From Treponemataceae bacterium (GTDB lineage Bacteria; Spirochaetota; Spirochaetia; Treponematales; Treponemataceae), in NCBI GenBank assembly GCA_024680915.1, contig JAILBN010000070.1, positions 1 through 60,197 on the forward strand: a DNA stretch of 60,197 bases. Direction: 5' to 3'. Every line of letters starts with the position of its first letter. Positions within the stretch are counted from its first letter, which is position 1. The position numbers and the translations under genes are program-made. Under the pieces are notes generated by a model. It saw nothing but the letters and a program-made list of their open reading frames with translations, was not told the DNA's origin and did not search any database. Shown one piece after another: positions 1,539-57,355 of this stretch.

Positions 1539-1650
1539 TAGTGCTTTCGCCGACAATCCCTACAAGCTCAGTCAGTTCCTGTCGTTCGGACAACTTCGTT
1601 GCCCGAACTTATCTGGTTTTGCAACAAAATCCATTGGCTACGCACTACAA
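1539..1650. repeat. Palindromic intergenic repeat, copy 1
   Basis: This stretch shares a block order with 23797-23898: a TAGTNC end, CGCCGACANTCCCTACAAGC, then an 11-bp stem-loop built on GTTGCCCGAAC, then GGCTACG. Its ends TAGTGC and GCACTA are inverted repeats of each other. The central stem-loop (1584-1608) has one imperfect pair that becomes G-U in the leftward transcript. The copy lies just after the stop codon of the cellobiose phosphorylase gene, filling the gap before the flavodoxin-like pair. It looks like a small REP- or MITE-like structured element. Confidence 0.6.
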
Positions 1651-1682: not shown

Positions 1683-4115
1683 TTATCCTAAAATAACTGA
1701 AATTTCATTAATTCCATCTTTTAAGATATCGGCAGGAACGACGTTTCCTTCAAGCTTAACACCGTTCACCACGAGCGATTTTACACCGCAGCAAACCTTA
1801 GACGGGTTCTCAACCTTTATTGAGAGCATCTTTCCACGGAATCGCCTTTCTGCTGTGAAACCTTCCCAATCATGAGGTATACAAGGATTAATCATTAATC
1901 CCTCATAAACAGGCTTTATTCCAAGGATATACTGGGTAAGACTGTAATAAGACCAGGCAGCTGCTCCAGAAAGCCAGGATACACGAGCGTTTCCGGCACG
2001 AGGGGAGAAAGCGGAATAGGTTGTCTGGCACTGGACATAGGGTTCTGCCTGACGGATTTCCGCCTTGTCGTTGTATGCCGCAGGGAGCGCCGCCTTGCAG
2101 TAAGCGTAAGCCTGATCTCCATGACCAAGCATAGTCTCCGCGATGATACCCCAACCCTGGGTGTGATTAAAAATACCAGCGTTCTCTTTTATACTGTCGT
2201 TGAAAACAACTGCACGCATAACCTCGACGGTTGTTTTTTTGAAGGGAGGTGCGCAAAGCATAAGTCCGAAAGGTGTCTGCAAATTCTCTTTTACAGTCTG
2301 CATGGCTTTTTCAGCCTGCTCTTTGTCGGCGGCACCAGAGATTACAGCCCAAACCTGTGTGTTGAGGTAAATATTTCCTTCTTCAAAATCCCGTGTTCCA
2401 TAAACCGTACCATCCTCGGCTATTGCCCAGATAAAGCGGTCTCCGTTCCAACAGAACTTCTGTATGTTATCATCCAGCTTCTGGCACTCAGCAAGAGCCC
2501 AGTCAGCTTCCTCCGGCTTGCCAAGCCTCTTAGCTATATCGGCATATACATTTAGTCCCAGATGAAGCTGGAAAGCCACGAAAAGGCTCTCTCCCTTGTA
2601 GCCAAGTTTCAGACAATCGTTCCAATCAGCAAGAAGACCGCAAGGAAGACCATGGGCACCAGTACGCTCAAGGTTAAAAATAAGAGCCTGCTTAAGATGA
2701 CCGAAAACCGTAGCCTCCCCTTTATCAGCATAGGGTATGACCTTATTGTAAAAATCGAAATCACCGGTCTCTGCGATATAAGCCGGAACTGAGTTGAAAA
2801 ACCAAAGACAATCATCGGAGCGGAACTCCTCAGGCTCAGGAGCTTTTTCCTGGCCTGGAACATGCTTCACAGGATTAATGACAGGAATAGCACCTCCGCA
2901 GGCAACCTGACCGGAAAGCATAAGCTCAAGGCGTTTTCCCGCATCTTCCGGGATGGCTGAGGCAACCCCGAGTATGTCCTGGACGGAATCCCTGAAACCG
3001 AAGCCGTCACGCTCGCCGTTGTATACAAGGCTGGCCGCCCGGCTCCATGCATATGTGATAAGACAATTATAAAGACCCCACATATTAACAGTATGGTTGA
3101 TATCTGGATCAGGAGTATTCACAGAAAGACTGTTCAGCTTTGAATGCCATGCTTTCTTAAGCTTCTCAAGCTCGGCGGCGCAAACTTCGACAGAGCCGTA
3201 TTTCTCCACACATTTTTTACCTACAGTAAGAGCCTCCCCAATACCAAGCATGACCAAAAGATCTTTTGACTCACCGGGAGCAAGCTCTATAACAGACTGC
3301 ATTGTTCCGCAGGCGTTGTCGCCATATGCATCAGAGCCACTGCATCTACCGTTTATAACAGCTTCCGGAGCGTGGTAACCACCATAAGTACCCAAGAAAG
3401 CTTGACGACTTGTATCATAGCCATCCATAGATGAACCACAGAGAGCCATCCATGTGTTCATGGCTATGTCTCCGTCAAGGGAAATAGCGTCAGGATCCCG
3501 CCCCTCCTCTATTGCCTTGGCCCTTGATTGAGCAGCCATATTATCTTGGATAGCTATGCGCAGCATATTATCGTGACGACTTCCCTGTATTATGAAAAGA
3601 GAATACTGCAGGTTCACCTGATCCTGGGTGGTATTCCACTGGTTAGTGAACTCGCAATAGCTGAAAACAGAAATGCGACGCTTTTTGTCGCTGTTGTTGG
3701 TAAGCTTAAGATGCCAATACTCAAAAAGCTGGTTCAGCGGCACGAAATAAGTGGTCTCACTTTTTATCCCGGAATACTCAGAGCTTATCGTCGTATAAGC
3801 AGTTCCATGACGACATTCTGACTTATATTTGTCCAATGGCTTACCTACAGGCTGCCAGGAAGCAGACCAATAATCACCATTCTCCTCGTCACGGAGGTAA
3901 AAATAACGCCCTGGCTGATCCATGGGAACTGAATTAAAGCGGAGGCGGAGAAAACGTCCCTGTGCTCCTGACTTATAAAAGCCGTAACCACCAGCATTGT
4001 TGGTTATAACAGCACCGTATTCTACAGATCCCAGATAGTTACTCCATGACTGGGGTGTATCAGGACGAGTTATGACATACTCTTTTTTCTCATCATCAAA
4101 ATAGCCGTATTGCAT
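1683..4115 (-). CDS. cbpA: Cellobiose phosphorylase, GH94
   Basis: The 810-residue protein matches the length and layout of bacterial cellobiose phosphorylases. These split cellobiose with inorganic phosphate into alpha-glucose 1-phosphate and glucose in the cytoplasm. The N-terminus (YGYFDDEKKEYVITRPDTP, then SNYLG and AGGYGFYK) is the characteristic GH94 beta-sandwich opening. GERDGFGFRDSVQD near residues 368-380 and ADWNDCLKLG at 496-505 are (alpha/alpha)6-barrel signatures; the DWND motif carries the conserved general-acid aspartate. There is no signal peptide, as expected. The gene lies 32 bp downstream of an amidohydrolase gene, probably in one transcript. No dedicated transporter is adjacent. 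Cellobiose specificity is inferred from overall similarity and is more certain than for the second GH94 protein in this window. Confidence 0.88.
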   Translation of the reverse strand: MQYGYFDDEKKEYVITRPDTPQSWSNYLGSVEYGAVITNNAGGYGFYKSGAQGRFLRLRFNSVPMDQPGRYFYLRDEENGDYWSASWQPVGKPLDKYKSECRHGTAYTTISSEYSGIKSETTYFVPLNQLFEYWHLKLTNNSDKKRRISVFSYCEFTNQWNTTQDQVNLQYSLFIIQGSRHDNMLRIAIQDNMAAQSRAKAIEEGRDPDAISLDGDIAMNTWMALCGSSMDGYDTSRQAFLGTYGGYHAPEAVINGRCSGSDAYGDNACGTMQSVIELAPGESKDLLVMLGIGEALTVGKKCVEKYGSVEVCAAELEKLKKAWHSKLNSLSVNTPDPDINHTVNMWGLYNCLITYAWSRAASLVYNGERDGFGFRDSVQDILGVASAIPEDAGKRLELMLSGQVACGGAIPVINPVKHVPGQEKAPEPEEFRSDDCLWFFNSVPAYIAETGDFDFYNKVIPYADKGEATVFGHLKQALIFNLERTGAHGLPCGLLADWNDCLKLGYKGESLFVAFQLHLGLNVYADIAKRLGKPEEADWALAECQKLDDNIQKFCWNGDRFIWAIAEDGTVYGTRDFEEGNIYLNTQVWAVISGAADKEQAEKAMQTVKENLQTPFGLMLCAPPFKKTTVEVMRAVVFNDSIKENAGIFNHTQGWGIIAETMLGHGDQAYAYCKAALPAAYNDKAEIRQAEPYVQCQTTYSAFSPRAGNARVSWLSGAAAWSYYSLTQYILGIKPVYEGLMINPCIPHDWEGFTAERRFRGKMLSIKVENPSKVCCGVKSLVVNGVKLEGNVVPADILKDGINEISVILG

Positions 4116-46316: not shown

Positions 46317-49300
46317 ATGAGAATACGAAACTTTCTTTCAATATTGCTTGTCATAATGGCTGTACAGCTGATACATGCAAGGCAAAAGACAATAACCATC
46401 ACAGAATATGATACGGTAGCTGATCCTCAGCATGTTACGGGTAATATTTATAAGGCAGATGATGGGACAGAGATTGAATTAAAGCAAGGACAGGATCCCA
46501 AGGACCCGAAATCTTACAGAGTCGATGGGGAAGACCATGGTATGCCTACTGCATCAGTTTCTAACACATATACCATCATAATCGATATTCCAGACGAGAT
46601 ATACACAGAAGAAAATCAAAACTTTATAGAAAGTGAATTCAAGAATTATTGCAAACAGCAATACGAAGCCACAGGCCAAGGTATAATCGGCGCCGGTATG
46701 GTGATGAAGGAGACAGTAACCCAGAAATTCTTGAATATTATTCCTTATGAAAAAGAATACACAGCAATCACACTGGGAAAAATGGAAACAAAAGTATTAT
46801 CCCACTCCATAGACAAGATAAAGGCCTCAGAATCAGTACAGATAGGTGACCCGGTACTTATGACCAGCGGTCAGTACAGATATGACGAGACCGATGTGAT
46901 CGTCCAAAACAGGAATCTGATGCTTGAAATAGGGAGACATTATCAAAGTGAGGAAAACCTAGGCGAAAGTCTTGGTAGGAAATGGTTTTTCAGCCTGGAT
47001 ACAAGGATAATAAGAGGAAGCTCAATATCATCGGAAAAGACCTATGAGGAAGCGCTGAAGACACTGGCTACCCTTGAAGCTGAACTTGCCGGTTTAAGAG
47101 CCAATAAGCGAGAAGCAGAATTGGAATATAACAACAGCCTGTTAAATCTTTATAGTGATATAAAGACGACAAATAACGCCATTAACAGTCTAAGAACAAG
47201 TGGATATACCTCCTACAGTGAAGTCTCAGAATACATCAAGAATTTAAGCTCAAAGCTCACGACTCTGAATGAGCTGCTTACTGAAATACAGACAGACAAG
47301 GCAATATTTATGGATAGGATAAACACATACATCTATGAATATGAAACAAAGCTATCCGCAGAAAGAAAGACGCTGGCAAAGATCAAACAGATATATGATC
47401 ATTCCATATATAACAGGAATAAGAACTCCCGGGCAAAAGAAGGGAATGGCTTTGATGAATACATGGACATAGGTACAGATATCATAATTCTTTTCGATAC
47501 CTACGGACGAAAAAGCATCTATCAGCTTACCACTCCCCCCACATACAATGGAAATGAGGATCTTTTCCCCCAAGGGGCAGAAACTACAAGTCTCTCGGGA
47601 GGAAGTGACAAGCTTTCCATACTTGCGGACGGAAGTTATCAGCTCAAGAAAAGAGACGGAACTATCTGGCATTACGGCGATAAGGGAATGCTGGGAGAAA
47701 TTACGGACAGGTACGGAAACAGCATAAGCATATCTTATGAAGGAGAAAAGCCCATATCCATAAACATAGACGGAAAAAATGCTTACCGCTTGGAATGGTG
47801 CAACAACAGGCTATGCACAATTGTGAACGCCAGAGATAACTCAGACTACACTGAATATTCATATACAGACGGAAGATTATCATCAGTGAAAGACAATGAT
47901 GGGGATTCCATATCTTTCGGATATATGGATGCACCAGGGGATTACCTCACCACTATTCAAAAGCCCGACGGAAGTGAGGTACTTATAGACTACAGTCTTG
48001 AAAGAGAAGGCAGGAAACTTGCCAGCAGGACAAGGAATGAGGAGGGGTTCTGGGAAAACTTCTCATATAGTCAGAGTGGTAAGAAAGTTGAGCATACTTC
48101 TCAATCAGGAATAAAAACCATATATGAATATGATGATGACCAGAGACTTACAAAAGAGACAGACTGCGATGGAAGCACAAAAGAATACGAATATGATGAA
48201 GATGGAAATGTAATATCAGAAAAAGTAAATGGAAACATCACAACCTACGAATACAACAATTATGGGGAAAAGATAAGAGCCTGTTACAGCGACGGAAGTC
48301 AAGAAGCATGGCAATACGATGACTTCGGTTCCGTGATTTCATACAAGGACAGGGACGGAATACAGTACGAATACATACGGGACAACAAAGGAAATCTCTC
48401 CACTCTTAATGCAGGAGGAAGAACGCTTTACACATATGAACATGACGCGAAAGGTCAGATGAAATCGGCAACGATGCACCGGGCTGACGGCAGTACCGTA
48501 TCCCGGAGTTTTTCATACGATGAATACGGCAATCTAAAGGAAAGAAGGTCAGCCAGCACAGAAACAAACGGAGGCATAAGGGAAGAATGGACATACGATG
48601 GTCGTGGAAGGATCCTGTCATATACTATAAACGGCAATACTGAGGAAAGTTATTCCTATGAAGGTAGGAAAACGACAATAAGCTATAAGAACGGGCTGGT
48701 CTCCGAATATATCACTGATTCGAGGAAGGATTGCAGGTCAATTCTGGAGAAAGACAGCCTGACAGGAGAAATCAGGTTCACCCAGATAAGCTACGACAAA
48801 TGTCATCAGCCAGTCAAACGGACCATATCCCAAGGGAAAGGGGAAGCTCCAGTCATAACAGCCCTGTACAGATATCTAGCGGGAGGAGAACCGGAAGCAG
48901 AGCTCTTTACAGATGGAGAGAACTGCATAGTCACTCTTTATGAATACAAGGATCAACAGGGTAGACAAACTGATTATCTGACGAAAATCACCAGAATCCA
49001 ATGCGTGATGTCAGACTTACATAGGGCTGGAATGACTGAGGAAGAAGGCTTTTCCAGGACAAACCTAGTCGAACTGCAGGCCCATGCAGAAGACAGCTAT
49101 TCAGTTTCCTATTCATACTTGATCACACAAAACGGTACGGAAGTCATAGAGACAGCCTCAGACGGAACACAGACAAAAAAAGAATATGATGCCTGGGCAA
49201 GACTATACAGCATAACAAACACCGCGGGAATAAAGACCTTTAATGAGTACACAGCGGCAGGAAGACTAGAAAAACAAGAGTCTGAATATGGTGGATTCTG

Positions 49301-52300
49301 GCTGTACCAGTATGATATCACAGGAAATCTGAAGGAAACTGGCCCTGAAGGTGGAAAACATACATTTGTAACGATGAACCCGGATGAAACTCCATTCAGG
49401 GTAACAGACAGGAAAGGCCAAACGAGCGAATATGCCTATGACGATAGTGGAAATTTAATAAAATTGCGAACTCCAACAGGCTCCACCTTCTGGAAATATG
49501 ATTATAAAGGCAGGCTTATATCTGAAATTATAGGAGGAAATGGAGACACCGCAAGCGCAGAGGAATATAGTTCATACACATACAGCCCGAATGGCAGATC
49601 TGTCACAAGCAACAAAGGAGGCCTCTATTCCATGATATATACGCTCAATGCATGGGAAGAAACCACATCCATAACTGACGGAGAGGGTAATAAAGGAACC
49701 TTCGGCTATGATTGCGCGGGCAGGCTTATTTCTCAGAAAGACGCTTACGGGAACGAAACGAAGTATGAATATGATGTCCGAGGTTTAGTGACACGGATAA
49801 ACTACCCTGACGGTACATATCACCAATATAAATATGATGTTTTCGGCAACATAACAGAAGAAAGCTTCTGCGGGAAAAGTACGAGAGAATTACTCTATGA
49901 CAAAGGAGGACGCCTGAAGGAAGAAAAGGGAGAGCTTACTCCCCTGACCTCCTATGAATATGATGAAAGCGGACGATTAGCCGCCCTGTTTTCCGGTGGT
50001 GAAAGAAAAAACTCCTATGAATATGATGACAGAGGACGGGCTGTATCCATAAAAGACGGAAGAGGTAACATAAGCCTGTATGAATATGATGGATTCGGTA
50101 AACTGATCTCCGAGACTAACCGTTTGGGATTATCCCAAACATTCTCATACGATTATGAAGACCAGCTTACAGAAAAAAAAACTTTCTCAGGGAAAGTCGT
50201 CAAAACAGAAACATCCGCAGATGGACTCTGCAAAACTACTTATTACCCTGATGGAAGCGCAGACATTGTGACATACGATTCAGCGGGCCGGATAAAATCC
50301 ATAAGCAATGAGACAGGAAGGACCCGATATGAATATGACAAAGGTGGAATGCTTACACGACAGACAGACGAAAGCACAGGAGAAAGCATCATATTTATCT
50401 ACGATAAAGCAGGAAGAAGGAAACAGATAAAAGGAGCAGGAAGAGATATCTCCTTATCCTACGGAAAGAACGGGGAATTGATAGAAATCAGGGACAAGTC
50501 GATTTCTGCTGGTTTCCGGATAGAATATGACAGCATGATGAGGGAAATCCGAAGGACTGGGGATAACGGAGTAAGAACAGAAACCTTCTATAACGAGAAC
50601 GGTACTGTGGATATAATAACGACAAAAGATAAAAAAGGTATGCTCCTTGATGCGGAAGCTTACGTATATGACGAAAATGGCAGAAAAGAAGCACTTATCC
50701 GTGAGAATGGAGAAATCACTTTATTCAATTACGATGACCAAGGAAGGCTAATATCGGTTTTTCATCCTGACACAAAAGAGATACAGGACTATGAGAATCA
50801 AATTATCAAATCATACGGAATAGTGGAAAAGCGTTATAATTCCATAAAATCAATATATATTCAAAAAAATGTATATAATAAGCTTGCTGATTTACAAAAG
50901 CTATGTAACAATATCACCACAGTAATATCAGTATACAGGACTTTCAGGGTAGAAAGCTTCACATACGATGAGAACGGAAACCGTAAGGGCTGGTACATAG
51001 GAGGAGGCTTAATAGAATATTCATGCGATAAGGATGACAGGATTGTTTCTTGTCTTTCAGGTGGAAAAAGAGTAAAGGAATATTTATATGACGATGACGG
51101 AAACCTGACGTCATTTTCAAATCCATCTGTTTCAGGTCACAGAAGCTATTACACTTACGACGGAAGAGACCGTATGATTTCATCAATTTCCTATGGGGAA
51201 GACGGTATTGCAAAGGAGAAAAACTACGGATATGATGCGATCGGCAGGAGAGCGTATGTCTCATCGTCGGGAAAGGGGACGGTCCGTAGCACATATGATG
51301 GTTTTGGATTCGAAAGTCTTTCGGAAAACAGGACAAGTGAAATATATGACGTCAGCAGCTTCACATCGCAAAGCAAGTCGAAGGGAGCTTCCATTCCACA
51401 GGGAGAACGTTACCGGTATATAAAGGACGGAATACAAACTGACGGAAGGCAAAGGACGAAGAGAGAGGAAAGCATGACGGAGCAGACAGGCTTCAGGACA
51501 AGGAAGTCTCTATACATAAAAGGAATCCCTGCCGCGATAGAAACAGACGGTGAAAGCTGCTATCTGTCAAACGACACGGCAGGCAGCATCAGATGCATAA
51601 CAGATTCCTACGGCTCCTTTGCGGCATCAATACAGTATGACACCTTCGGCACCCCCGTCACGATTTCTGACAAGGGTATGCTTTCAGCAGGCGACAGCAC
51701 CACATACCAGGTGAACACCATGCACAAGGGCAGAAATACTCCGGACAAGCAATATACATCAGATTACGACCTCATCTCAGATACCCAGGAAAACAAAATA
51801 ATCGACACAGTTCTTTCCAAGGCAGCCTACGCAGGCAAGCCCTACGACCCAGTTACAGGCCTTTACGACTATGGCTTCCGTGACTACTCACCCGCCCTAG
51901 CCCGCTTCACCACTAAAGACCCAATAAGAGACGGCCTCAACTGGTACGCTTATTGCAACAATGATCCAGTGAATTTCGTGGATATGTGGGGGTTGAAATT
52001 TAAAAAGAGAACTTTTCATAATCTTATGGGAGACTCTGCTTGGAGGAATGAATTAACAGGAAATGGGGTTGATTTCTTAGCAGAAAAAGGGGAAATCGGT
52101 CAATTGAGAAACACCGGATGTGCAATAACGGAAATGAGTAATGTAATATCCTCTGCGACTGATATTATTCTAACTCCAAAAGATATTAATGATGATAAAT
52201 CTTATTTTGCAGCAGGTACAGATAATCTTTATATGCAAAAACTTGCTGAGGATAATGGACTAATATTCGATTATTGGACAAAAAATGTACAGGGAGATTT

Positions 52301-52577
52301 AGGGAAAAAGATTACAGAATTAAAAAACAATAAAAATGAATATCTGATTTCCGCACAAGTAAAATATAAAGAAGAAGATGAAAAAAGTCATTGGGTAGGT
52401 ATTACAGATGTAGAAACCAGAGAAGATGGGAAAACCTATGCAAAAATAGCCCCTACATCAATTTTAGACACAAGCAAATCTCATAGACCCAGAGATTCTT
52501 GGGTTTTAGATGAAAATGGGGATATGTGGATTGAAACCTCTGATATAAACAAAATATATACGTATAAGAATAAATAA
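46317..52577 (+). CDS. RHS/YD-repeat protein with C39-like peptidase C-terminus
   Basis: The 2086-residue protein follows a strong AAAGGAGG site and begins with a Sec-type signal (about residues 1-22). An RHS N-terminal region with VQIGDPVLMTSGQYRY and LGRKWFFSLD is split by a predicted coiled coil (about 241-365). Then come some 40 YD repeats (G-x-L-x-YEYDxxGR...) forming the cocoon shell. The conserved core ends GLYDYGFRDYSPALARFTTKDPIRDG...NFVDMWGL (to residue 1893). The variable tip from 1894 contains GQLRNTGCAITEMSN and SHWVGITDV, with Gln1929, Cys1935 and His2025 matching a papain/C39-like peptidase. It is probably an exported polymorphic toxin; no PAAR or type VI component is in the window. 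An AT-rich insert lies around residues 1481-1544. Confidence 0.88.
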   Translation: MRIRNFLSILLVIMAVQLIHARQKTITITEYDTVADPQHVTGNIYKADDGTEIELKQGQDPKDPKSYRVDGEDHGMPTASVSNTYTIIIDIPDEIYTEENQNFIESEFKNYCKQQYEATGQGIIGAGMVMKETVTQKFLNIIPYEKEYTAITLGKMETKVLSHSIDKIKASESVQIGDPVLMTSGQYRYDETDVIVQNRNLMLEIGRHYQSEENLGESLGRKWFFSLDTRIIRGSSISSEKTYEEALKTLATLEAELAGLRANKREAELEYNNSLLNLYSDIKTTNNAINSLRTSGYTSYSEVSEYIKNLSSKLTTLNELLTEIQTDKAIFMDRINTYIYEYETKLSAERKTLAKIKQIYDHSIYNRNKNSRAKEGNGFDEYMDIGTDIIILFDTYGRKSIYQLTTPPTYNGNEDLFPQGAETTSLSGGSDKLSILADGSYQLKKRDGTIWHYGDKGMLGEITDRYGNSISISYEGEKPISINIDGKNAYRLEWCNNRLCTIVNARDNSDYTEYSYTDGRLSSVKDNDGDSISFGYMDAPGDYLTTIQKPDGSEVLIDYSLEREGRKLASRTRNEEGFWENFSYSQSGKKVEHTSQSGIKTIYEYDDDQRLTKETDCDGSTKEYEYDEDGNVISEKVNGNITTYEYNNYGEKIRACYSDGSQEAWQYDDFGSVISYKDRDGIQYEYIRDNKGNLSTLNAGGRTLYTYEHDAKGQMKSATMHRADGSTVSRSFSYDEYGNLKERRSASTETNGGIREEWTYDGRGRILSYTINGNTEESYSYEGRKTTISYKNGLVSEYITDSRKDCRSILEKDSLTGEIRFTQISYDKCHQPVKRTISQGKGEAPVITALYRYLAGGEPEAELFTDGENCIVTLYEYKDQQGRQTDYLTKITRIQCVMSDLHRAGMTEEEGFSRTNLVELQAHAEDSYSVSYSYLITQNGTEVIETASDGTQTKKEYDAWARLYSITNTAGIKTFNEYTAAGRLEKQESEYGGFWLYQYDITGNLKETGPEGGKHTFVTMNPDETPFRVTDRKGQTSEYAYDDSGNLIKLRTPTGSTFWKYDYKGRLISEIIGGNGDTASAEEYSSYTYSPNGRSVTSNKGGLYSMIYTLNAWEETTSITDGEGNKGTFGYDCAGRLISQKDAYGNETKYEYDVRGLVTRINYPDGTYHQYKYDVFGNITEESFCGKSTRELLYDKGGRLKEEKGELTPLTSYEYDESGRLAALFSGGERKNSYEYDDRGRAVSIKDGRGNISLYEYDGFGKLISETNRLGLSQTFSYDYEDQLTEKKTFSGKVVKTETSADGLCKTTYYPDGSADIVTYDSAGRIKSISNETGRTRYEYDKGGMLTRQTDESTGESIIFIYDKAGRRKQIKGAGRDISLSYGKNGELIEIRDKSISAGFRIEYDSMMREIRRTGDNGVRTETFYNENGTVDIITTKDKKGMLLDAEAYVYDENGRKEALIRENGEITLFNYDDQGRLISVFHPDTKEIQDYENQIIKSYGIVEKRYNSIKSIYIQKNVYNKLADLQKLCNNITTVISVYRTFRVESFTYDENGNRKGWYIGGGLIEYSCDKDDRIVSCLSGGKRVKEYLYDDDGNLTSFSNPSVSGHRSYYTYDGRDRMISSISYGEDGIAKEKNYGYDAIGRRAYVSSSGKGTVRSTYDGFGFESLSENRTSEIYDVSSFTSQSKSKGASIPQGERYRYIKDGIQTDGRQRTKREESMTEQTGFRTRKSLYIKGIPAAIETDGESCYLSNDTAGSIRCITDSYGSFAASIQYDTFGTPVTISDKGMLSAGDSTTYQVNTMHKGRNTPDKQYTSDYDLISDTQENKIIDTVLSKAAYAGKPYDPVTGLYDYGFRDYSPALARFTTKDPIRDGLNWYAYCNNDPVNFVDMWGLKFKKRTFHNLMGDSAWRNELTGNGVDFLAEKGEIGQLRNTGCAITEMSNVISSATDIILTPKDINDDKSYFAAGTDNLYMQKLAEDNGLIFDYWTKNVQGDLGKKITELKNNKNEYLISAQVKYKEEDEKSHWVGITDVETREDGKTYAKIAPTSILDTSKSHRPRDSWVLDENGDMWIETSDINKIYTYKNK
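51788..51905 (+). repeat. 118-bp tract identical to the orphan RHS tip
   Basis: This stretch of the main RHS gene encodes the conserved core ENKIIDTVLSKAAYAGK through SPALAR. It is identical by eye, base for base, to 53544-53661. A further 35-bp identical tract covers DPVNFVDMWGL in both copies. These are the natural crossover sites for exchanging C-terminal tips. Confidence 0.85.
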
Positions 52578-52612: not shown

Positions 52613-53437
52613 ATGAAAAAAGTATTGTTATTGGTTTTAACAGTCTATGGGCTGCTATTGACGGGCTGCAACAACAAAGCCATGGAGGAGCTCCAGAAGA
52701 AAAACACTGAACTGGAAAAGAAATACAGGACCCTCTCGTCCCAATCGAAGGAACTGTCTTCCTCCTATGAGGAATGCCTCAAGCAAATATCTGATCTTAC
52801 GGCAAGGTTGGATACTCTGGAGGAAAGGATTAATACGATAGAAAAAGAAAGACTTATAGCAAAAACAAGGAGAACTGCTATAAGGTACGATCATAAACAG
52901 ACTGTAAATTTCAAATACGGCGGTTATGACACTAAGATTTACAAAGAACCATTAGGAGAAGAAGTCATCTATACAGTCCAGACTGGAGATAAGATTCAAG
53001 TCACAGCTATATTGGTCTTTGAAACAACGAACGAAGGCTTCCTGGAGGTCAAGACACCAACTGAAGTCACAGGCTACATAGCCTTTTTGAATCCCTTCAA
53101 AGATGGAAGTTTTCTTCCTATATACACACTTACGGTGGATGGAAAAAACGTAACTATACTGAAGATGGAAAATGCATATCATGTTACGGAGACTTTTCAT
53201 TTGAGAACCCTACCATCCGACAACTCAGAAAGCATCCATGTAGTTACCCATAAAGAAGGCATGGATTATTATTGGACATCAGCTATAACTGAGGATTATG
53301 AATGGGTGAAGATAAAACTCAACGAATATGAAGGCTGGGTCAAAACTCAGGCACTGAGCGTGGATAAAGGCGGTCCTTTATTAAATACCCCAGAAGCAAT
53401 GATTGAATGGGTACTGATTGACGTGAACATGATCTAA
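52613..53437 (+). CDS. Coiled-coil/SH3-like lipoprotein, candidate immunity protein
   Basis: The 274-residue protein begins with a lipoprotein signal (KKVLLLVLTVYGLLLTGC, Cys19) after AAGGAGA. Residues 22-85 form a strong coiled coil (heptads such as ELQKKNTELEKKYRTLSSQ and LDTLEERINTIEKER). Two SH3-like beta domains follow, the second with FHLRTLPSDNSESIHVV and YEWVKIKLNEYEGWVKTQAL, the usual bacterial SH3 ending. It lies 35 bp after the RHS toxin stop codon, and a decayed second copy of its middle part lies at 57005-57355. The position fits an immunity protein that neutralises the peptidase tip in the periplasm; alternatively it is a cell-wall-binding accessory. The immunity role is inferred. 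Confidence 0.7.
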   Translation: MKKVLLLVLTVYGLLLTGCNNKAMEELQKKNTELEKKYRTLSSQSKELSSSYEECLKQISDLTARLDTLEERINTIEKERLIAKTRRTAIRYDHKQTVNFKYGGYDTKIYKEPLGEEVIYTVQTGDKIQVTAILVFETTNEGFLEVKTPTEVTGYIAFLNPFKDGSFLPIYTLTVDGKNVTILKMENAYHVTETFHLRTLPSDNSESIHVVTHKEGMDYYWTSAITEDYEWVKIKLNEYEGWVKTQALSVDKGGPLLNTPEAMIEWVLIDVNMI

Positions 53438-53448
53438 ATTAAGATATT

Positions 53449-54504
53449 ATGTTTTGTTACCCAAAAAAGAAAAAGTGTTTTCAAATGACTAATCATACAG
53501 GCTTCAGGTCTAGGAAGTCTCTATACACAAAGGGGAGTCCCGCGGAAAACAAAATAATCGACACAGTTCTTTCCAAGGCAGCCTACGCAGGCAAGCCCTA
53601 CGACCCAGTTACAGGCCTTTACGACTATGGCTTCCGTGACTACTCACCCGCCCTAGCCCGCGAGTTTTGCGAAGCAAAATCTCGGGAAGAAAAACAAAGT
53701 TTTTCGACCTTCACCACTAAAGACCCCGTCTGCGCAGAGCGCAGTTGTGATAGGAAATTTATTTTATATGTTCCCTCACGCGAACACCCAATAAGAGACG
53801 GCCTCAACTGGTACAATACATGGGCTGCGAGTTTTGCGAAGCAAAATCTCGTGGAGAAAAACAAAGTTTTTCGACCCGATCCAGTGAATTTCGTGGATAT
53901 GTGGGGGTTGAAGCAGGTTTTAGCAGAGGACATAGTTCAATTAAATAATAACCGTATAATAAGTAATAGTAATGGAAATCTAAAGAAACAGGCAAAGATA
54001 GAAATACAAAGAAGTCCTGATGACAACGGTAATAATGGCAAATACTACCAGTCTACTCTTTCCGTTGTGATTAATGATGATGTAAAACTTTTTTCAGCTC
54101 CTGTTCAATCTACGGCAGATCATCCAAACCTCAATAATGGCGAAGCAAAATATAGTGGAGGAACACTAGACGCGGGAATGTACGACGGTGTTTTCTTAAA
54201 CAAATCTGGAAGTTATATGAATGCTATTGATATAACAGGAAATGGGGTCGAAGAAAATGATGCCGTCCTTGTTCATCCTGATGTATTTACTGCAAAAGGA
54301 GAAACAGACAGTTATAGTATATATGGCAAACCATATAGTTTAGCTTGTCAGATATTAAAATTAGTTGACTTTAACAAAACTATAAACACTCTTTCAAATC
54401 TGGGTTTTAGAGGAGGAACTCCCAAAAATGAAAATGAATCATGGAGCAAGGGTGATCACATAAAAATAGAAATCAAAGATGCAACTGACAAAAAGGGGAA
54501 GTAA
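53449..54504 (+). CDS. Orphan RHS tip (core fragment plus alternative toxin domain)
   Basis: The 351-residue frame has no good ribosome-binding site. It starts with a few unrelated residues, continues with a fragment similar to the main RHS core (HTGFRSRKSLYTKG), skips about 250 bp, and resumes with the 118-bp tract identical to 51788-51905. The core then runs to NFVDMWGL but is interrupted by three palindromic, frame-preserving inserts. From about residue 155 a different tip follows (KQVLAEDIVQLNNN...). Its segments GGTLDAGMYDG, AVLVHPDVFTAKG and PYSLACQI recall the HP-N and S-x-GC pattern of L,D-transpeptidase-like domains. It is probably a silent cassette expressed only after recombination into the main gene. 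It ends two bases before the next gene. Confidence 0.65.
   Translation: MFCYPKKKKCFQMTNHTGFRSRKSLYTKGSPAENKIIDTVLSKAAYAGKPYDPVTGLYDYGFRDYSPALAREFCEAKSREEKQSFSTFTTKDPVCAERSCDRKFILYVPSREHPIRDGLNWYNTWAASFAKQNLVEKNKVFRPDPVNFVDMWGLKQVLAEDIVQLNNNRIISNSNGNLKKQAKIEIQRSPDDNGNNGKYYQSTLSVVINDDVKLFSAPVQSTADHPNLNNGEAKYSGGTLDAGMYDGVFLNKSGSYMNAIDITGNGVEENDAVLVHPDVFTAKGETDSYSIYGKPYSLACQILKLVDFNKTINTLSNLGFRGGTPKNENESWSKGDHIKIEIKDATDKKGK
53544..53661 (+). repeat. 118-bp identical copy of the RHS core in the orphan tip
   Basis: This is identical to 51788-51905 of the main RHS gene. The identity ends exactly where the first palindromic insert begins, which suggests that the insert entered after, or at, the duplication. 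Confidence 0.85.
53662..53709. repeat. Palindromic in-frame insert A
   Basis: This 48-bp insert in the RHS core is absent from the main RHS gene. It consists of two hairpins: CGAGTTTTGC-GAA-GCAAAATCTCG (including the base before) and GAAAAAC-AAA-GTTTTTC. It keeps the reading frame, adding 16 residues (EFCEAKSREEKQSFST). Confidence 0.8.
53725..53787. repeat. Palindromic in-frame insert B
   Basis: This 63-bp insert lies between the codons for KD and PIRDG of the RHS core and adds 21 residues. It contains the hairpin CTGCGC-AGA-GCGCAG (53730-53744) and an AT-rich rest. Its sequence is unrelated to inserts A and C. Confidence 0.7.
53829..53876. repeat. Palindromic in-frame insert C
   Basis: This second copy of insert A matches at 46 of 48 positions. 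It is read in a different frame (SFAKQNLVEKNKVF) from copy A, yet the RHS core frame is intact on both sides. Here it replaces the core residues AYCNN, and flanking bases have also changed. Confidence 0.8.
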
Positions 54505-54506
54505 TC

Positions 54507-55307
54507 ATGAAACGACCAATGTTTGTATTTATTTTATTGTTTTTGGCATCATCTGTATTTTGTCAAAATTTCACTGAAAGCGGAGAAATTCTGACTTTAG
54601 ACGGACTTTCATTTGCATCAGATATACTCAATGAAATTGTTTTCGAAAACGGGGAAATTTCAATCATCAACTATGAGGGATATTTTGAAGAAAAGAGACA
54701 TATCATTTTAAATGACAAATACGATATCGAGAAAAAAGGCAGCCTCGTTTTTCTTAACCTTAAAAATGAAAGTAAATCTTTTCTATGCCTTGCGAGCGAT
54801 GAAGTACTGTTGCTATATGACGAAAAGAATGAGTCCCCTTTCTTTTTCGGATTCTCCTCAATGAGAGGATTGGAATTAATAAGCCAGCCAGATAAGATAA
54901 CCGCATCATCAGAACTGCTTGAGAATGACTATGTTTATTCCGCCAGTAATCTTGGCAACTTTAATCTTTCACAGCCTTGGGTGGAAGGAGTTCCGGGGAA
55001 CGGTGAAGGTGAGTATATTACATTATCTGGAAATTGCACCTACATATACTTATTCAACGGATATATTTCGTATTCAAAGCCGTATCTGTACGAACGGAAT
55101 TCTCGAATCAAGAAAATAAAGATAACCACGAATACAGAAAATGGAGAAAAGGAATTTATTTTCAACTTATTTGACACTCCCAATCCTCAGAAAATAAATC
55201 TTGGGGAACGTGTTACAGATGATATAAAACTGGAAATCCTAGAAGTTTATCCAGGCACAAAATATCAGGATACCTGTTTGAATGCACTATTGTTTAAAAT
55301 ATTTTAA
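54507..55307 (+). CDS. Exported NADase-type glycan-binding-domain-like protein, candidate immunity protein 1
   Basis: The 266-residue protein starts two bases after the orphan tip's stop codon, with GGGGAAG as its ribosome-binding site. It has a signal peptide (MKRPMFVFILLFLASSVFC) that may be lipoprotein-like at Cys19. The N-terminal half (about 25-130) is beta-rich and unrecognised. The C-terminal half contains TASSELLENDYVYSASNLG, PWVEGVPGNGEGEYITL, FNGYISYSKPYLYERNSRIKKIKI and TKYQDTCLNALLF. This order of motifs matches the discoidin-like domain known from NADase-associated glycan-binding modules. Translational coupling to the tip gene suggests it is the matching immunity protein. That role is inferred; the domain call is moderately sure. 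Confidence 0.65.
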   Translation: MKRPMFVFILLFLASSVFCQNFTESGEILTLDGLSFASDILNEIVFENGEISIINYEGYFEEKRHIILNDKYDIEKKGSLVFLNLKNESKSFLCLASDEVLLLYDEKNESPFFFGFSSMRGLELISQPDKITASSELLENDYVYSASNLGNFNLSQPWVEGVPGNGEGEYITLSGNCTYIYLFNGYISYSKPYLYERNSRIKKIKITTNTENGEKEFIFNLFDTPNPQKINLGERVTDDIKLEILEVYPGTKYQDTCLNALLFKIF

Positions 55308-56450: not shown

Positions 56451-57032
56451 ATGAGGCAGCTATGGACGATAAAAGCTTCTAACATTCGAAACAGCACACA
56501 ATATTCGGCTACTTCCGAATTGATTGAAAACAACTTCACGTATGAAGTAGAAAATCTTGGGGAAACAAATCTAATTCCATGGGTTGAAAATGCACCAGAT
56601 TCTGGAATTGGACAAACAATAACAATGGAATGGCCGGTCTGGAAAGATAGAGACGGATCTCAAGGTGGAATTGGAGCATTAATCTTTTTTAATGGTTTTA
56701 TCTCTTTTGACAAACCATACCTTTATGAAGCAAATAACAGGATTAAAGAAATAAGACTATATTCAAAAGATGGTTCATATGATTTCCAAACAAAACTAGA
56801 TGATACTCCGAATCCCCAAATCGTTTTTTTACCTGTACCAACATCAGAAATGTGTGTAGAGATAAAAAGTGTGTATAAAGAAAATAAATGGAATGACACT
56901 TGTATTAATTCAATATTCGGATTAGAAAACTGGCAAGCAAGGAGTCTTTATGAAGATATGCTCAAAAAAGGAGATAAGATACTTGGTTACAAACCAAACT
57001 CTATTACGGCGGTTATGACACGAAAATCTTAA
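56451..57032 (+). pseudogene. Truncated third paralogue of the candidate immunity family
   Basis: This frame retains only the discoidin-like half: TSELIENNFTYEVENLGE, PWVENAPDSGIGQTITMEW, FFNGFISFDKPYLYEANNRIKEIRL, KWNDTCINS. It lacks the N-terminal half and the signal peptide, and no ribosome-binding site precedes the ATG. Its last ten codons read out of frame into a remnant of the SH3 lipoprotein gene. It is most likely a dead fragment. Confidence 0.55.
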
Positions 57033-57355
57033 AAGAGCCTTTAGGAGAAGAAGTCATCTATACAGTCCAGACCGGAGATAAGATTCAAGTCACAGCTATA
57101 TTAGTCTATGAAACAGCTAATGAATGCTTCATCGAGGTTAAGACACCCTCTGACATTAAAGGCTACATAGACATTTCGCTAAATCCCTTCAAAGATGGCA
57201 GTTTCCTGCCTATATACACACTTACGGTAGATGGAAAAAACGTAACAATACTGAAGATGGAAAGTTCATATCATGTTACGGAGAGTTTTCATTTGAGAAC
57301 CCTACCATCCGACAACTTCCCGCCAGGGAAGCTGTCTTTAACATTCAATTCTTGA
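57005..57355 (+). pseudogene. Remnant of the coiled-coil/SH3 lipoprotein gene
   Basis: From the bases for YGGYDTKI to those for LRTLPSDN (about 57005-57318) this stretch repeats the middle of the lipoprotein gene at 52613-53437 (about 52915-53220), with scattered substitutions. It has neither start, lipobox nor coiled coil, and after the homologous part it reads unrelated sequence to a stop at 57353-57355. It marks the right border of the cassette region. Confidence 0.75.

Follow-up and report, generated by a model that had tools for sequence, protein, structure and literature searches.

How does the conserved core of an RHS gene come to hold short palindromic pieces that leave its reading frame open? 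In-frame palindromic repeats in protein genes are a hallmark of Rickettsia, later noted for repetitive extragenic palindromic (REP) sequences elsewhere. The question is raised here by a 60,197-nucleotide stretch of a Treponemataceae bacterium (contig JAILBN010000070.1 of assembly GCA_024680915.1, positions 1 to 60,197; hereafter the window), in which an orphan RHS tip duplicates the end of a main RHS gene. A preliminary description of the window had reported three extra pieces (48, 63 and 48 bp) in the orphan core, all in frame, and had proposed a mobile element like the Rickettsia palindromic elements (RPEs). The pieces are confirmed by a direct repeat, by folding and by exact segments shared with the main gene. 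It is highly probable that the two 48-bp units are copies of a REP- or RPE-like double-hairpin element, dispersed among the Treponemataceae, which spreads as DNA and has landed in the orphan cassette. The features concerned are the following.

46317..52577, + strand: main RHS gene of 2086 aa, with a core (51788-51997) that corresponds to the orphan core but has no inserts
53449..54504, + strand: orphan RHS tip, an open reading frame (ORF) of 351 aa, presumed silent, host of all three inserts
53661..53708, + strand: double-hairpin copy 1, 48 bp (CGAG-A-CTCG, linker GGAAG, stem B, CGAC), at the RHS core site G^C
53727..53789 (about), no strand assigned: 63-bp insert, member of a second palindromic repeat family, with an ACCC direct repeat on its flanks
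53828..53875, + strand: double-hairpin copy 2, 48 bp, 46/48 identical to copy 1, in a different reading frame

Insert boundaries were taken from exact matching segments of the main and orphan genes; a MAFFT alignment, which put the gaps wrongly, was left unused. Orphan positions 53544-53661 are identical to main positions 51788-51905 (118/118), and the match restarts at main 51905, equivalent to orphan 53709, so that copy 1 is an insert of exactly 48 bp with an ambiguity of at most 1 bp. At the 63-bp insert the match stops after main 51922 and restarts at 51919, leaving the 4-bp direct repeat ACCC on both sides. The third insert is composite, a 48-bp element plus an adjoining 15-bp replacement that changes AYCNN in the main protein to NTWAA in the orphan; the earlier view of three pure insertions thus holds for copy 1 and the 63-bp piece, not for this one. 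The two 48-bp units are visible as a 50-nt direct repeat (53660-53709 and 53827-53876, 96% identity), and as RNA each folds into a pair of stacked hairpins, with energies of -15.8 and -16.1 kcal/mol and z-scores of about -2.9 and -3.0. Their description as near-identical double hairpins agrees with both the folding and the covariance model introduced below. The orphan reading frame stays open through all three inserts, and coverage by the NCBIfam model Rhs_assc_core, which spans model positions 13-76 in the main gene, reaches only 13-44 in the orphan, stopping at the first insert.

The 48-bp unit is not peculiar to this locus. An exact 24-mer search of the genus matched only the window copies, contig C22 of genome G000, and genome G003. 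Such a search is nearly blind to the family, and a structural pattern was therefore needed. With the inner arms relaxed, genomes of the genus carry many CGAGTTT...AAACTCG hairpins, far above a reversed-pattern control. A scan of GTDB genomes with the pattern CGAGTTTN{4,16}AAACTCGGTAAG gave at least 108 stretches; the matches listed come mostly from gut and rumen Treponema, with a few from metagenome-assembled genomes (MAGs) of Pseudomonadales and Acidimicrobiales, and in most of the listed Treponema cases GTAAG follows and then a second palindrome, usually closed by CGAC. The layout of the family is G|CGAG-[palindrome A]-CTCG-GTAAG-[palindrome B]-CGAC, and copy 1 matches it with GGAAG as its linker. 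Of 87 copies with distinct flanks, 85% have G at position -1, 78 have GTAAG as the linker and 70 end in the tail CGAC. The linker and outer hairpin A were largely set by the search pattern, which placed no constraint on the -1 G, on palindrome B or on the final two bases of the tail.

A covariance model was built from 19 sequences, none of them from the window and the last a hand-typed composite of other copies. This model of other Treponema copies recovers both window copies (E 3.5e-8 and 2.5e-5). At E<=1e-6 it detects the family in 61 of 118 Treponemataceae genomes and 10 of 20 genera, a dispersal like that of RPEs, and the unit is thus found well beyond the window. Within the genus, six of seven genomes have about 16-43 matches each and G002 has one weak match, though many of these matches are weak or are reverse-strand readings of one hairpin, so the numbers of elements are lower. 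Copies lie in both orientations, as tandem or inverted pairs, and within ORFs on either strand. The model also adds a third, degenerate member in the window.

1581..1631, - strand: degenerate double-hairpin member (covariance model E 7.7e-5), between ORFs 996-1499 and 1683-4115

Two further observations concern the extent of the family. Double hairpins of a similar kind, in which stem B is followed by CGAC or CGGC, occur in the Pseudomonadales MAG PL23a_bin.75 (L073, L080, L103 and L155, the last assigned to it by sequence similarity, its organism not being listed) and in Acidimicrobiales MAGs (L081, L084, L108), and may reflect transfer, convergence or binning error. In addition, hairpin A is often preceded by an extra third hairpin whose loop contains GGA (CATGGATG-like), as in L042, L043 and L058, indicating that larger mosaics exist.

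What is conserved among the copies is pairing rather than sequence: the arms vary freely while complementarity is retained. Across 150 aligned copies, in an alignment that had been fitted to the structure, 97.9% of paired cells hold standard pairs against 77.8% after shuffling, and 322 cells show double changes against 91 when shuffled and at most 50 with the partners slid. Helix 2, which the search pattern had not selected, has double changes at all five of its five pairs. Helix 1 was partly fixed by that pattern, and its outer pairs cannot count as covariation.

The uninterrupted core is the ancestral one, and with the wide occurrence of the unit this means that neither of the findings named in the preliminary description as refuting a mobile element was made. 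All RHS cores of the genus that could be read (that of the main gene and seven more) are free of inserts and have the form DYGFRDY....(A/G)RF..(P/V/K/S)DPI.DG.NWY....(D/N)P(V/I)N(F/Y)VD.WGL, from which it follows that the inserts in the orphan tip are derived; their perfect flanks show that they arrived after the orphan and the main gene were last homogenised. The insertion of copy 1 is accordingly both derived and recent. For this copy the main gene provides an exact empty site, between G and C, its left flank being identical over 118 bp, and there is no target-site duplication (at most 1 bp) of the kind that would mark a miniature inverted-repeat transposable element (MITE). The 63-bp insert, which is of another family, does carry its 4-bp repeat ACCC. 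Sequences similar to it occur at G000:C64, G006:C248 and G003:C73 and share a layout in which a conserved TTGYGTATGGAAATT-ATTTTTGAT-like spacer separates one hairpin from a second, GTCCGCTCACGCGGAC, the G003 copy having the compensated version GTTCG..CGAAC; judged by this resemblance, the insert is a member of a second palindromic repeat family.

Most copies of the double-hairpin family are intergenic or outside recognisable genes, and the coding fraction, screened through ORFs and domain matches without full annotation, is approximate (roughly ten of about 184 non-redundant matches). These copies nonetheless appear as in-frame insertions in several unrelated protein genes, and insertion-free homologues exist for some of them (the RHS cores, the ABC transporter loop and Escherichia coli AsnB), both features being shared with RPEs. 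The only full-length carA of the source genome has a 45-bp element in the linker between two domains, with the frame open; the linker is composed differently in G003 and G006. The asparagine synthetase gene (asnB) of a Spirochaetales MAG encodes about 48 residues, including the element, that have no counterpart in E. coli AsnB (1ct9), and in PrmC of G001 about 40 residues are inserted, in a stretch that contains a weaker covariance-model match. A KilA-N gene (L101) contains two inverted copies in frame, 102 bp in total, while in its sister strain (L087) a single fused copy, interrupted by a stop, is present; the two related strains differ by the fusion of two inverted elements, which suggests that the elements recombine with each other. 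Genes for an HU-like domain and a macro domain also contain copies. Other candidates within ORFs (L090, L134 and the antisense frames of L065 and L069) were dropped, the element preceding a plausible start codon or the frame being doubtful.

The ABC transporter of Treponema strain C6A8 extends the picture to other repeats. Here the element forms a loop ahead of ILHGIN, and in homologues this loop is short or is filled by unrelated palindromic repeats encoding GESLPLAPA..., CHTDSILLTQNQ... or VVEPVETT...; other palindromic families lie in frame at the same loop in sister Treponema species (L322, L323, L324, L328, L338, L339, L341 and L342). Several palindromic repeat families therefore enter coding loops in these bacteria.

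How the element spreads can be outlined as follows. It would move as DNA to sites just 3' of a G, without target duplication, as seen at the one clean empty site, and most likely as a folded single strand, through either a trans-acting enzyme or template switching associated with replication. Recognition would depend on shape plus a few fixed bases, because the arm sequences vary freely while their pairing stays. Copies arriving in genes would persist where they add a net length divisible by three, contain no stop and lie in a surface loop or linker; the protein then gains roughly 15-50 residues. In the orphan RHS cassette, two 48-bp copies and a 63-bp member of the other repeat would have entered after the last homogenisation with the main gene and been tolerated because the cassette is probably unexpressed; it has no obvious ribosome-binding site ahead of its first ATG, and is likely to be silent. 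A wider proposal is put forward tentatively, at somewhat under even chances: that this is a mobile family conserved as a shape, its arms rewritten but complementary, which has repeatedly entered Treponemataceae coding sequence alongside other palindromic families, so that protein loops are populated by a mechanism that reads structure or copies hairpins.

Several observations weigh against an element that moved here by itself. Clean empty sites at the DNA level number only one, the source genome is a draft MAG of 134 contigs, and no dedicated transposase was linked to the element in the genomes searched. Genes for Y1 transposases are absent from the source genome and show no association with the element among G000-G024, occurring in 3 of 11 genomes that bear it and 3 of 14 that do not. 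Moreover, a degraded copy with a stop lies on contig C22 (G000:C22:844-913, L005) beside an apparent RHS-end fragment, and has in common with copy 2 both the element and flanking RHS-like sequence, so that copy 2 may have come with an RHS fragment and not by its own insertion. Taken to its conclusion, this becomes the proposal that the orphan tip recombined with another, diverged RHS gene and gained its core from it, inserts and all, no element having moved here. The similarity of the C22 flanks on both sides (82%, 70 nt) and the 15-bp stretch (NTWAA) next to copy 2, absent from the main gene, speak for such an event; but copy 1 and the 63-bp insert are bordered by sequence identical to the main gene, and no other RHS core in the genus search has inserts at these sites, which leaves this proposal unlikely. 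Less likely still is that the double hairpin is an RNA element (a terminator, mRNA stabiliser or regulator) and not a mobile repeat: its strong RNA folding, its compensatory changes and the intergenic position of the majority of copies would suit one, whereas Rfam returns no match, and both orientations, tandem or inverted pairs and ORF copies on either strand would not be expected. It may have an RNA role of a secondary kind. Mobilisation as GTAG-type REPs by REP-associated tyrosine transposases (RAYTs) is similarly improbable. The short, recurrent extragenic palindromes, paired in places, do recall these REPs, whose movement is attributed to Y1 transposases. However, there is no GTAG tag at the hairpin foot, GTAAG being the linker between two hairpins, and in a limited sample no repeat-flanked RAYT gene was found; besides the lack of a Y1 gene in the source genome, the one Y1 gene of the genus (L172) has no copy of the element directly beside it.

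The preserved frame had been taken to argue for selection or for element design, an argument that the analysis does not support. As evidence for selection the frame is weak, because the two 48-bp inserts share one length, leaving only two independent lengths, because both copies are open in all six frames, because the cassette may be silent and because the region was noticed through its open frame in the first place. That selection acts on the inserted residues themselves, as useful additions to the RHS core or to proteins generally, has little probability. All inserts in the orphan tip do keep the frame, and the coding copy in carA is open, but multiples of three are not over-represented among the family lengths (22/92), one KilA-N copy has a stop, and peptides from separate copies are unlike in frame, strand and sequence. 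The proteins that carry the copies are unrelated to one another and have them in loops and linkers; the purifying removal of harmful insertions suffices to account for this. The consensus linker GTAAG gives a TAA stop in one frame; copy 1 is read in that very frame and has GGAAG there, and the apparently non-coding C22 copy also has GGAAG.

Some features around the inserts remain to be mentioned. In the variable end of the orphan tip, 27 nt (54140-54166) are 85% identical to part of copy 2, either as a remnant or by chance. Directly 3' of the tip, ORF 54507-55304 encodes an NADase-type glycan-binding domain (NF047619, E 1.2e-33) and may be its partner. Two diverged copies of one stretch (85-94%) lie at 52911-53225, within ORF 52613-53437, and at 57000-57317, around the end of ORF 56451-57032.

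Among known systems, miniature elements derived from IS200/IS605 have hairpin ends and no target duplication. The Treponema element resembles them in its hairpins and at its one clean site, but lacks a transposase gene, a left-end spacer before the first hairpin and demonstrated guide sequences. The MITE and RU elements of Coxiella and enterobacteria are likewise small repeats reported in coding sequence, and differ as longer inverted-repeat elements with transposon-type ends (PMC5896051, PMC2759123). The CGTC-tagged REPs, reported in five phyla including the Spirochaetes (Di Nocera 2013, PMC3733652), are also hairpin repeats, often present as dimers, with intragenic copies and no associated transposase. 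Their CGTC tag lies beside a conserved stem whose first pairs are AT, and they have a CCA tail (PMC3733652), whereas the Treponema element has CGAC (sometimes CGTC) after stem B and no conserved stem sequence; the consensus lacks a CGTC tag at the end of a conserved AT-starting stem and a CCA tail, and is not assigned to this super-family. CGTC-REP-like sequences do occur near some copies (L088, L152). The CGTC REPs include RPE-4 and RPE-6 of Rickettsia, which have no dedicated transposase, and intragenic REPs have been described in several bacteria (PMC3733652). Behaviour of the Rickettsia type is therefore not new in itself, while no description of such coding insertions in Treponema was found in the open-access literature searched.

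In-frame palindromic spread now extends to Treponema, including the housekeeping genes carA and asnB, and many species there can be compared. Varying but complementary arms, unlike the conserved stems of ordinary REPs, raise the question of how such an element is recognised and copied, and culturable gut and rumen strains (e.g. Treponema bryantii, C6A8) allow tests of expression and mobility. Overall, the evidence supports behaviour like that of RPEs and intragenic REPs, and the dispersed, recent, in-frame insertions in coding genes uphold the comparison first drawn with RPEs. Like these, the Treponema element is a short dispersed palindromic repeat, both intergenic and in frame in unrelated protein genes, with no dedicated transposase known; judged from the published layout of RPEs, it is set apart by a host of another phylum, by its two separate hairpins with fixed CGAG, GTAAG and CGAC marks, and by arms that are unconserved between copies.
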